A stretch of 64,000 bases of DNA, taken from contig NC_056543.1 in NCBI RefSeq assembly GCF_910596095.1, forward strand, positions 26,794,542 to 26,858,541. The letters are read 5' to 3'. The stretch's first letter is position 1. Each line of letters begins with the position of its first letter. Positions 45,101 through 54,100 of this stretch are shown here, piece after piece. Under the pieces are notes generated by a model, which saw only the letters and a program-made list of their open reading frames with translations, had not been told where the DNA came from and did no database searches. This DNA is from Thunnus maccoyii (taxonomy: Eukaryota > Chordata > Actinopteri > Scombriformes > Scombridae). A program made the translations under genes and the position numbers.

Positions 45101-48100
45101 TTTTCCCTCTAACCTGTCAGCTTCTCAGGAGAAAAATCAGTTTTATTCCTAAAATTGCAGTGTTTTTCATTTTCATTGTGTGTTTATATAGATAGCAGAC
45201 AAAACTCTATCACACAACTTTACTCTGAACTTAACCACATCTAACCTGGCAGTACTAGTTGGAAGCATAAAGTCATTGTTGATTTTGGCTTTTTAAAATG
45301 ATTTGTTGAAAATGTATATAAAAATTAAAGCTGCCAGCAGCGTTGGACTTATATGAATTTTGTGGTTTTGGGAAAACATTGGGTTTGAAAGAATGCCTCA
45401 CTGCTTTTCATCATTTTATAAAACCTTCCTGCAATGTGGCATGTTTACGAAGGTTTACTTTGTGAGAATGTTTTGAGGATGTTGCTTTAAGAGAAAATTC
45501 TGTTCAAAATGTGCCAAAGTGATTTTAAGAATATGTGTTTAATGTTTTGAAAATGTTTTGAAATCATAGAAAAAAGAGGCTGCAGAACTTGCCTGAGAAT
45601 CATCACATTTGAAAGGTTTCTTCAGTATGAAAGTAATCCAGTGATAGTAGGCTACATTACAAACAGGACTTGCTAAAAGCTAATTCAGCAGACTTTTAAT
45701 GGAGACTGTTTGTTAAAATGTAAACAAACACTCAAATATTTGGTGCTAACGCACCAAGTAATGCAAAAATGTGTGAGCAAAGAAAGAGAAGAAGACTGCA
45801 GCTAGTGAACATAGATGTAAGTAATGTAACATGTTTGTTAGTAGCTGTTAGTTACTCAATGTTATCAATGTGTTGTGGTGAGAAACTGAACACTGAATGC
45901 AAACAGAAGCTTTGTTTGTTTACAAAAAAATTCCACATGGAATCTTTAATTCATTTAGTCAGACTTTATGTTTATGTGAGCTGGTTTCTGATTGGTGGCG
46001 GCGTGGGGTGGGAGGGGTCAGTTGAGTTTTTTACAAGTTTTGTTGTGTTAATAACATTTCAGTGACTATTATTCACAGTGTAATTAGCACCAAATTCATA
46101 TTCATTCATCTGCGCGGCTGCTTCACTGTAGCTGGATACGGTTTCTCTCTGCAACCACAGGCAGTAATGAGGGTGGGAGGGCAAAGCCATCTAAATGAAA
46201 TCTACACACTACATTATTCATGCTAAACAGTTTGCCATATTTTTTAGGCTGACACTAACCTTTCTGACATACATGCAGTTAAGGGACAACTGATCACAAA
46301 ACTCACGGTTCGGATCGTATCACGGATTTGAGTCATGGATCAGATCATTTTATGGATCAGCCAAAAAAAGGGGGAGGGACAAATAAAACATTGTTTTCCA
46401 TATATTCTGTAAAACACTTCCAGCAAGGAACTTTTGCCCATGGTCTTAAATGAAAACAAAATTCAAGATGTCTAATGTTTAAATAAAATATATAAAATAC
46501 TCAATGCTCAATTGTTAAATTAAATTGCAATATGAGGCCTGATATCTTCCTCTTTTAAACATGGTAGTGAATGAAACAACATTTTGTGTCCACATCATCA
46601 AAACTTGATGATAATTTGCAAACATGAACACACGTCTTGTCCTGCAGCTTGTTGAACGAGCCACCAAAGAAGCATTGACTAGGGAAAAGTGCACCGCTAA
46701 CGTCAGTTAGCAGCTATGTAGCTAATTAGGTGCTCAGCTGTCTGTCCATGACTTGTACTTCCAGCAGTTTGTTTACGTCGTCTTAAATGCGACATTAAAT
46801 GTTGCAATTAATCCGCAGTTCACATGCCTGCCGAACCATGGGGGGCGATCCATATGGATCATGGATCAACTACGATGCATAACACCCACACCACTACATG
46901 CAATGCAAATATTGTAGTAAATATTGTCAAGCTGATGTGACAATGAGGTCTCAAACAGAAATTATTGCACTCATTTTTGCATTATGATGACCACTGACTG
47001 AGTTTTTTTGTTTTTAATATCCCTCCAACACTGACAGCAGCCTTTAACTGTCAACTAGGTCAATTATTCAGGGGTCTGTATCACAAAGCAAGTTCAACTT
47101 AAAGGTGTTTGATGAATCAGCTTCCAAAACAAAGTAGAAATCAGCTGGTTTAGAGATCATTAGTCAGTAATTTAAATAATGTCAACATCAATGTAACTTT
47201 GCTCCAAAGATTTCAATCTTTTCAAATGTGATATGATATGTTTTTTAACCTGATATCTTTTATTTTTTAACCCAACTTTTATTTTTTAATCCAACTTTCA
47301 TTTTTTAATGCAACTTTTATTTTTTAATCTGATATCTGCTGTCAGGTCACATGACCTCCTCCAAGGTTGAGCTCATGATGTCATCAGTTCCGGATGTCAT
47401 CAGATATGTGACCCTTGTGAACCTATGACACATCAAAGGCAAGACGGCTTTATGATGCAAGATTGTGGATCATCAGTTTATCTGTAAACTGAGACCATTT
47501 CATCTCACATCCGCACACAAGTATCGTGTTACAGATTCACAGTCTATCAAAGACCAAAGAACGAAGAACGAAGACCATCCTTCACGCACAACTAGCGTCT
47601 ACCACTACAGTCTACGACAGACATCTTACTATTTACTACCTCTGGACATTGTCTTTGTAAAAACAATGAACAGAGGAGATAACCCAAGATGTCAGGGCAG
47701 ATTTGCTGATGCTGCACCACATCAGCGTCCTAATCAGCATCCCAACCGGCAGAGACCACCGGCTGGAAGGCCTCCCTGCCGCGACTGCGGATATCTGCAA
47801 AGTTGCCTCAACATTGCTCACAGGCAGATTGCGGAATGGAACAACTGGTCCCAAACTGTGGAGCCCATGCTGGGCAACTGGTTGCTTTGTGACCAGAGGT
47901 TACAGGCCAGTAACGCCACCATAAGAAGGCTGGAGGAACGTCTGGAGTCCAAGGAGAGGGAACTCACAGAGGTGTCCTCTCTACTCCAGAAGAGTAGAGA
48001 GGACATCTCTGAGAGAGATACACTCATCTCCTCCCTCAGAGAAAGTGTCCAAAGCAACAGCATGCAGGCCGACAGCATCCAACGCTTCTGGAAGGAGGAG

Positions 48101-51100: not shown

Positions 51101-54100
51101 ACATTATTCATGCTAAACAGTTTGCCATATTTTTTAGGCTGACACTAACCTTTCTGACATACATGCAGTTAAGGGACAACTGATCACAAAACTCACGGTT
51201 CGGATCGTATCACAGATCTGAGTCATGGATCGGATCATTTTATGGATCAGCCAAAAAAAAGGGGGAGGGACAAATAAAACATTGTTTTCCATATATTCTG
51301 TAAAACACTTACAGCAAGGAACTTTTGCCCATGGTCTTGAATGAAAACAACATTCAAGATGTCTAATGTTTAAATAAAATATATAAAATACTCAATGCTC
51401 AATTGTTAGATTAAATTGCAATATGAGGCCTGATATCTTCCTCTTTTAAACATGGTAGTGAATGAAACAACATTTTGTGTCCACATCATCAAAACTTGAT
51501 GATAATTTGCAAACATGAACACACGTCTTGTCCTGCAGCTTGTTGAACGAGCCACCAAAGAAACATTGACTAGGGAAAAGTGCACCGCTAACGTCAGTTA
51601 GCAGCTATGTAGCTAATTAGCTGCTCAGCTGTCTGTCCATGACTTGTACTTCCAGCAGTTTGTTTACGTCGTCTTAAATGCGACATTAAATGTTGCAGTT
51701 AATCCGCAGTTCACATGCCTGCCGAACCATGGGGGGCGATCTATATGGATCATGGATCAACTACGATGCATAACACCCACACCACTACATGCAATGCAAA
51801 TATTGTAGTAAATATTGTCAAGCTGATGTGACAATGAGGTCTCAAACAGAAATTATTGCACTCATTTTTGCATTATGATGACCACTGACTGAGTTTTTTG
51901 ATTTTAATATCCCTCCAACACTGACAGCAGCCTTTAACTGTCAACTAGGTAAATTTTTCAGGGGTCTGTATCACAAAGCAAGTTCAACGTAAAGGTGTTT
52001 GATGAATCAGCTTCCAAAACAAAGTAGAAATCAGCTGGTTTAGAGATCATTAGTCAGTAATTTAAATAATGTCAACATCAATGTAACTTTGCTCCAAAGA
52101 TTTCAATCTTTTTAAATGTGATATGATATGTTTTTTAACCTGATATCTTTTATTTTTTAACCCAACTTTTATTTTTTAATCCAACTTTCATTTTTTAATG
52201 CAACTTTTATTTTTTAATCTGATATCTGCTGTCAGGTCACATGACCTCCTCCAAGGTTGAGCTCATGATGTCATCAGTTCCGGATGTCATCAGATATGTG
52301 ACCCTTGTGAACCTATGACACATCAAAGGCAAGACGGCTTTATGATGCAAGATTGTGGATCATCAGTTTATCTGTAAACTGAGACCATTTCATCTCACAT
52401 CCGCACACAAGTATCGTGTTACAGATTCACAGTCTATCAAAGACCAAAGAACGAAGAACGAAGACCATCCTTCACGCACAACTAGCGTCTACCACTACAG
52501 TCTACGACAGACATCTTACTATTTACTACCTCTGGACATTGTCTTTGTAAAAACAATGAACAGAGGAGATAACCCAAGACGTCAGGGCAGATTTGCTGAT
52601 GCTGCACCACATCAGCGTCCTAATCAGCATCCCAACCGGCAGAGACCACCGGCTGGAAGGCCTCCCTGCCGCGACTGCGGATATCTGCAGAGTTGCCTCA
52701 ACATTGCTCACAGGCAGATTGCGGAATGGAACAACTGGTCCCAAACTGTGGAGCCCATGCTGGGCAACTGGTTGCTTTGTGACCAGAGGTTACAGGCCAG
52801 TAACGCCACCATAAGAAGGCTGGCGGAACGTCTGGAGTCCAAGGAGAGGGAACTCACAGAGGTGTCCTCTCTACTCCAGAAGAGTAGAGAGGACATCTCT
52901 GAGAGAGATACACTCATCTCCTCCCTCAGAGAAAGTGTCCAAAGCAACAGCATGCAGGCCGACAGCATCCAACGCTTCTGGAAGGAGGAGTGTGACAAGG
53001 TCACGGCCAGATGGCAGGCAGAAAAAGCCATACTGTTAGCTTCTGCCCAGCTGAGAGAGGAGGCGCTTCTGCACAGCCAGAAGATGGAACAGAAAGAACA
53101 TGAAAACCAGGGGATGAAAGAAGAGAACCCACAAGAAAATGAGGGGAATAAAGATGAGAACCCACAAGAAAATGAAGCGAAGAACGATGAGAACCCACAA
53201 GAAAATGAAGGGAATAAAGAAGAGAACCCACAAGAAAATGAAGCGAAGAACGATGAGAACCCACAAGAAAATGAAGGGAATAAAGAAGAGAACCCACAAG
53301 AAAATGAGGACAAGAAACAAAAGAAAGCAAGACAAAAACGGGAGAAGGAGGAAAAGAAACAAAGAGCAAAAGAAGAGAAGAAGAAAGAAAAAGAGGAGAA
53401 AATGGAAAAGAAGAAAAAAGAACAAGAGCAGAAGATGGAAAAGAAGAAAAAAGAAAAAGAGGAGAAGATGGCACAGACACAGAAAGAAAACAAGGAGAAG
53501 AAAACAGGTTTTTGGGGCTGGAGACGCAAGAAGAGCGACAGAAAGGTGGAGGAAACTGCTTGTTGTCCAGCGGAGGCTGAACAACAAGCAGAACCCCTTC
53601 ACCTCTCCACCCTTCCTCCCTCTCTCCATCCTCCCTCCTCTCTTCCATCTTTCTCACCCCCATCCTTCCTCCTTTCCTCATCTTCCTTTACCCCCAACTC
53701 CTCTTCCTACTCCGTTCTACCTCTCACCCCTCTCCGCCAACCTCTCTCCTCACCCCTCCCCTCTCTCCTCTCCCCCTCTACCTCTCCTCCCTCTCCCCTC
53801 CACCTTTCCTAACCTCCTTCCTTCCCCCTTCAGGGCGGCACGCGGGCTCAGTGATCAGCACTGCAGCCTCACAGAAACACCTCCACCTGCCTGTTTCTGC
53901 TTGTTTCTGTGTGGAGTTTGCATGTTCTCCTCGTGTCTGCGTGGGTTTTCTCCCGGCTCTCGGGTTTCCTCCCACAACACAAAGACATGCAGGTCAGGCT
54001 GATTGGAAACTACTAAATTAAACCTCAATTGATCACAAATACCAGATGAAAATACAAATTAAAAAATAAAAAATAAAAAAACAACAACTGCATGACTTTA

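Follow-up and report, generated by a model that had tools for sequence, protein, structure and literature searches.

A dispersed family of intronless, probably coiled-coil genes in Thunnus maccoyii, with uneven constraint and candidate spread as DNA circles

Two intronless open reading frames (ORFs) lie in tandem, antisense, within an intron of a ferlin gene in a stretch of 64,000 nucleotides of the Thunnus maccoyii genome (NC_056543.1, 26,794,542–26,858,541, forward strand; hereafter the window, whose positions give all feature coordinates). The initial annotation had proposed them as an undescribed gene pair; we find that they are not special to this intron but one tandem-duplicated member of a dispersed family, present at at least 19 places in the genome. 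The explanation that we consider probable is that of an intronless gene family, carried in cassettes of ~5 kb with their own promoter core, which has spread as DNA circles and encodes a coiled-coil protein with a conserved C-terminus. At the level of sequence, the frame, the C-terminal Lys/Glu helix and the motif GFW(G/S)W are seen to be kept and the N-terminal half to change about as fast as silent sites, and copies are seen to multiply in tandem and between contigs, older ones decaying. What gives the gene its significance is the wider family and the way in which it spreads, more than the nested arrangement, and the host intron may be incidental, other copies lying elsewhere.

A dispersed family of open and decayed copies

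A search of the species' own genome (782 Mb, 54 contigs) returned 26 matches, with 19 places at E < 1e-30, which form the closer family set; copy 1 and copy 2 denote the window pair, and names such as L009 denote family places beyond it. The frame is open from the start codon at 13 of the 19 places (the window pair, L009, L010, L011, L014, L015, L017 and L020–L024) and open without the start region at three (L012, L013 and L016), and the other three are broken, L018 by one stop, L019 by a frameshift and L025 by truncation. When the query was built from members on contig C20, the same 19 places and four distant ones were recovered, and further relatives, most of them stop-bearing or fragments, came to light when one of the distant members served as query. 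The initial annotation had set against its own proposal the alternative of a genome-wide repeat family carrying broken copies; there is indeed such a family, but in the closer set 16 of 19 members are open, and it is the distant relatives, which we read as an older clade, that are largely decayed. In the counts below, family A comprises L009–L025 (n = 17), and the distant loci are L026–L037 (n = 12). Four of the latter, L032–L035 (C15:8.18–8.22 Mb), form a local array of closely similar decayed copies.

As extracted, the proteins of the 16 open members range from 339 to 599 residues, differing in length mainly through the repeat segment, and GFW(G/S)W is present in every open member listed. 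Of the layout parts named at first, Cys9 and the Ser/Pro tail are not family features: copy 1 has Cys9, but copy 2, L009, L010, L011 and L014 lack it, and the tail is missing from the five C20 members L020–L024. These five (C20:2.0–2.9 Mb) have expanded QRPDQ and EEKQEQNE repeats, and their end, GFWGWFCCCSAQTEQ, takes the place of the Ser/Pro tail. Local groups of the family occur on contigs C7 and C20. Family places lie closer to contig ends than expected by chance (Kolmogorov–Smirnov P 0.0019 for 11 places, with clusters counted once, the three broken members included and the distant clade left out), and 8 of the 11 are ≤3.2 Mb from an end.

The layout had been described as unlike that of known proteins. 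A Pfam search of both ORFs matched zero families, and the ORF proteins found no relative among PDB sequences. Searches of IMG/VR, GTDB, phage and plasmid sequences found no relative either, in collections none of which holds fish genomes and of which IMG/VR and GTDB reveal close relatives only. Nothing reached gathering scores in Rfam between 44500 and 56000, the promoter DNA pattern had no match in viral contigs, and two peptides of the protein (14 and 10 residues) had no match in the literature searched. In public fish annotation, its members may already be listed under computed locus names. The initial proposal is supported in so far as the gene is very probably protein-coding, intronless and without Pfam or PDB-sequence relatives.

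Much of the initial description of the pair also proved accurate. ORFs of 462 and 418 codons are both present on the plus strand with ATG starts; repeat number changes in frame, from 11 units in copy 1 to 6 in copy 2, each of 33 bp; and the internal inversion is an exact reverse-complement flip of a 36-bp palindrome, which leaves the frame unbroken. Antisense nesting inside a ferlin gene is confirmed by the minus-strand exons, which, joined from both sides, match residues 810–1081 of otoferlin, the best ferlin in PDB (E 1.3e-88).

The plus strand lacks a GTRAG donor between 47400 and 49200, and the idea that the pyrimidine tract closes an intron near the C-terminus was rejected on this ground (a weaker donor is possible). 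A retrocopy with a poly-A tail, suggested by an A-rich stretch near 49400, was dropped, the upstream core being shared too. No clear spliced, intron-containing parent was found among the own-genome matches, for which the queries came from the head only.

Constraint on frame, helix and promoter core

From comparison within the family, the ORFs are very probably real coding genes, because nearly all gaps in the head come in multiples of three bases, zero stops are seen in the members analysed and the helix has an excess of synonymous change. Between copy 2 and 11 members, 32 of 34 head gaps are multiples of three; for flanking sequence, compared in six members, the figure is 40 of 204. The two remaining head gaps are one of 5 bases in the broken L019 and one of 1 base in the open-framed L020, which we take for an effect of fixed-length cutting. 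On a tree of 11 members, ~233 head substitutions would be expected to create 11.1 stops, and 0 are seen. The initial annotation had pointed to the fact that both window copies stay open, which is true but weak evidence, the probability of no stop in 20 changes being 0.32.

The head itself is unusual in its openness and in its heptads. Dinucleotide shuffles of the head (n = 2000; here the first 570 nucleotides of the ORF) left a plus frame open in 3 cases and any of the six frames in 17. None of 1000 residue shuffles matched its heptad score, whichever of three window sizes was used, and the predicted coiled coil runs from about residue 56 onwards. Base asymmetry by codon position in the head is weak (77 of 2000 shuffles reach the same level), and codon usage relative to local exons was dropped as coding evidence, one minus frame outscoring the coding frame.

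Purifying selection on the protein is seen only in the part from the helix to GFWGW. In eight pairs compared from the Lys/Glu helix to GFW(G/S)W, which share branches and are not independent, the proportion of synonymous sites that differ (pS) is 0.11–0.53 and that of nonsynonymous sites (pN) is 0.03–0.06. Fisher P values for the synonymous excess run from 4e-8 to 0.006 in five of the eight pairs (those tested), and from 8e-5 to 0.003 in three pairs tested with transitions weighted threefold. The Ser/Pro tail is without constraint; pN is about equal to or greater than pS in 5 of 6 pairs, and the sixth has pN 0.056 and pS 0.093.

The two window copies have not changed equally. With L009 as the sole outgroup, copy 1 carries the derived state at 11 of the 14 replacement differences between them, among which are R9C and a change from Arg to Trp in the conserved helix, and copy 2 carries it at 3. 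At 2 of the 11, members more distant than L009 share the copy 1 state; three of the 11 cluster within a single repeat unit and another three within the flipped palindrome, so that the events are fewer than 11. Copy 2 is nearer to the other members than copy 1 is, and copy 1 may be relaxing.

Upstream of the ORFs lies a core of 68 bp, 330 to 262 bases before the ATG. Between copy 2 and each of L011, L014, L017 and L018, 1 of 68 core bases is changed, compared to 31/217 to 35/249 between core and ATG; for L023, the corresponding values are 3/68 and 47/230. The core was detected in 11 of the 17 family-A loci (L009, L010 in part, L011, L014, L015, L017, L018, L021, L022, L023 and L024), and its first 23–25 bp in 2 of the 12 distant loci (L030 and L028). 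Its sites presumably resemble a nuclear-receptor inverted repeat or M-box, plus a site like the cAMP response element. The claim that upstream palindromic sites are kept holds in part: the family comparison shows that the region is kept, but identity within the window pair is within chance (P 0.39 for one such gap). The count of upstream spaced palindromes is also within chance, 81 of 500 shuffles reaching the observed number.

Tandem units, a permuted copy and the weighing of explanations

The two tandem units occupy 91% of the intron (9819 of 10839 bases; Table 1) and differ by 57 substitutions over ~4.9 kb, a divergence of 1.2%. They differ further by five 33-bp repeat units, 74 bp of a pyrimidine tract, 239 bp of 3' flank, four small gaps and the flipped 36-bp palindrome. 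The 239-bp stretch is found in other family members, and the difference is therefore a loss in copy 1 and no gain in copy 2. The same 24-bp sequence (as a pattern with two free positions) is present at both outer edges and at the joint, and the duplication therefore fits exchange between short direct repeats. A repeat, GGGACCGAGCCC..GAGGAC, is found at 50178–50203 (+), 55082–55107 (+) and 55742–55767 (-), and also in five further family loci (L011, L014, L018 and L020 among them), besides the L009 and L025 joint.

The copy on contig C19, L009, holds the window unit in circularly permuted order, unit positions 1618–4929 being followed by 1–1621, and diverges from copy 2 by 2.5% over 4264 aligned bases. 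CATGAC stands at both edges of L009, and TGAC is common to the unit at the cut. A 57-base pattern made of the unit end and the repeat (≤3 mismatches) occurs at four places in the genome, namely the window joint, the window right edge, L009 and L025, and at three of these, the window joint, L009 and L025, the sequence runs on from the joint into the unit start. The L009 joint is like the window joint, and that of L025 differs by a few bases. L011, L014, L017 and L018 extend beyond the window unit ends into shared flanks of varying length; in L017, direct repeats of 230 bp lie at oriented positions 2236–2465 and 7330–7559.

From the permuted C19 copy and the common joint, we infer that the window unit spread as a DNA circle. 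In the proposed course of events, a circle of one unit would have been opened at another point and joined via microhomology to yield the C19 copy, and the window pair would have come from such a unit via unequal exchange between the 24-bp repeats.

Table 1. Positions in the window of the ORFs, their parts and the surrounding cassette
Feature	Positions	Strand	Remarks
ORF, copy 1	47666–49054	+	462 residues; ATG start
ORF, copy 2	52556–53812	+	418 residues; ATG start
ENPQENE repeats, copy 1	48233–48595	+	11 in-frame units of 33 bp
Repeats, copy 2	53123–53320	+	6 in-frame units of 33 bp
Lys/Glu helix to GFWGW, copy 1	48587–48796	+	constrained protein part; coordinates read from the sequence
Lys/Glu helix to GFWGW, copy 2	53312–53521	+	coordinates read from the sequence
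36-bp palindrome, copy 1	48831–48866	+	near-perfect, in coding sequence; reverse complement of the copy 2 palindrome
36-bp palindrome, copy 2	53556–53591	+	near-perfect, in coding sequence
Promoter core, copy 1	47336–47403	+	with AGGTCACATGACCT (47344) and TGATGTCATCA (47376)
Promoter core, copy 2	52226–52293	+	
Tandem unit 1	45322–50236	+	4.9 kb
Tandem unit 2	50212–55140	+	4.9 kb
24-bp end repeat, left edge	45323–45346	+	
Unit-to-unit joint	50178–50236	+	59 bp, within a repeat found elsewhere too
Right-edge copy of joint repeat	55082–55140	+	continues into unique flank, not unit start
Ferlin intron containing both units	44976–55814	-	exon on each side; ends from printed splice sites

Several points weigh against this account as a whole. 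Full permutation is seen at one locus only (L009; L025 is partial), and L009 is short of ~570 bp and smaller pieces. The contrast between the core and its surroundings is weaker on its upstream side, where 6/77, 8/87, 9/67, 3/90 and 3/69 bases are changed (L011, L014, L017, L018 and L023, respectively); the core borders were set by eye, the core was not found at the threshold used in 6 of the 17 family-A loci (L012, L013, L016, L019, L020 and L025), and local gene conversion could mimic its conservation. The head gaps are not independent events, and the stop count is biased, since its 11 members were picked as open. The initial annotation had called for the ratio of replacement to silent rates (dN/dS, omega) of the head, which we obtained across family members; whole-head omega is ~0.87, indistinguishable from 1. 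The N-terminal half gives 1.07 and the coiled-coil half 0.72, a value that likewise does not differ from 1 (log-likelihood 783.19 versus 784.07). In the head of the window pair, 5 of 6 changed codons are replacements (454 replacement and 116 silent sites), and the pair alone is uninformative on selection because the changes are too few.

Excision of a linear piece from a tandem array could leave the appearance of a circle, and such an array exists in the window; the C19 piece, however, amounts to exactly one unit apart from 4 bases by which its ends overlap, a length that a random cut would be unlikely to produce, and we consider a linear origin of the C19 copy rather unlikely. That the tandem pair is an assembly error, with two haplotypes placed in succession, we judge very unlikely, given that the window is without any N, that the joint falls exactly on a 24-bp direct repeat and that the same joint is present in L009 and L025. 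Another reading is that of a mobile element, with the cassette as a transposon or its passenger and the ORF as the element's protein: the copies are dispersed with shared flanks of ~5 kb, one joint recurs at three loci, a decayed old clade stands beside an open young one, and, among 13 self-compared loci, two have the cassette between direct repeats, L017 (230 bp, 94%) and L011 (312 bp, 85%). However, such flanking repeats were not seen in most of the 13 loci, the ends vary between copies, and both ORFs and the two further unit stretches scanned contain no Pfam family and no gene for a transposase, reverse transcriptase or integrase, so that we regard this explanation as unlikely. If the ORFs had arisen by chance in an intron full of repeats, or were remnants of a decayed repeat, an omega near 1 in head and tail would be accounted for, as would a frame that codon usage does not single out, and repeats and purine/pyrimidine tracts do keep parts of the frame open; set against the three-base gaps, the zero stops, the heptads, the synonymous excess in the helix and the promoter core, this reading appears extremely improbable.

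Elsewhere in the window, two rhodopsin-type receptor ORFs stand in inverted order at 90–995 (+) and 4583–5458 (-) (7tm_1, E 5.5e-48 and 3.5e-44). They are 75% alike in DNA and may be TAAR genes.

Proposed function and known systems

The function most consistent with these features would be that of a coiled-coil adaptor with a conserved C-terminal contact. The likeliest contact would be GFW(G/S)W, because it is kept in every open member listed. More tentatively, the protein may form a coiled-coil dimer or a higher form, the repeats may act as a length-variable spacer, and the Lys/Glu helix may be a stiff rod that presents the aromatic C-terminal motif to a partner or to membrane. The fast head and the change in copy number suggest a changing partner, as in reproduction or genetic conflict. 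A bolder reading, which we think distinctly unlikely, is that a cassette with its own promoter has, time and again, left the chromosomes as a circle and inserted anew. A normal-looking host family without an enzyme of its own would then act like a mobile element, perhaps kept by germ-line conflict.

Within one genome, the C-terminus and the promoter core are constrained while the head evolves fast, and copies are born by tandem exchange and by a jump resembling that of a circle, and are lost as they decay. This provides a compact vertebrate case, with joints at base level, for circle-mediated gene duplication; specialist attention is merited above all by the uneven constraint and by the proposed route through circles.

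Chicote et al. (2020, PMC7450558) describe human segmental duplications that arose via circular DNA, in which the order of blocks differs between donor and acceptor and the insertion site shows short homology. The C19 copy resembles these in its permuted block order and its short homology at the insertion point. However, the tuna unit is ~5 kb and contains a single gene, and the repeat in which its joint falls has 24-bp copies at the unit edges, whereas that paper describes no circle-closing homology. As in nested intronic genes of the type treated in PMC3933685, an intronless gene lies within an intron on the opposite strand; unlike those, the host intron here is possibly incidental, and 8 of 11 family places are ≤3.2 Mb from a contig end. 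In kind, the genes form a multi-copy, possibly lineage-restricted family, and they share copies near contig ends, birth and decay, and a fast head with the lineage-restricted and subtelomeric multi-copy families discussed in PMC9713401; that paper concerns a yeast, and the sequence of the tuna family is one without match in Pfam or PDB sequences.

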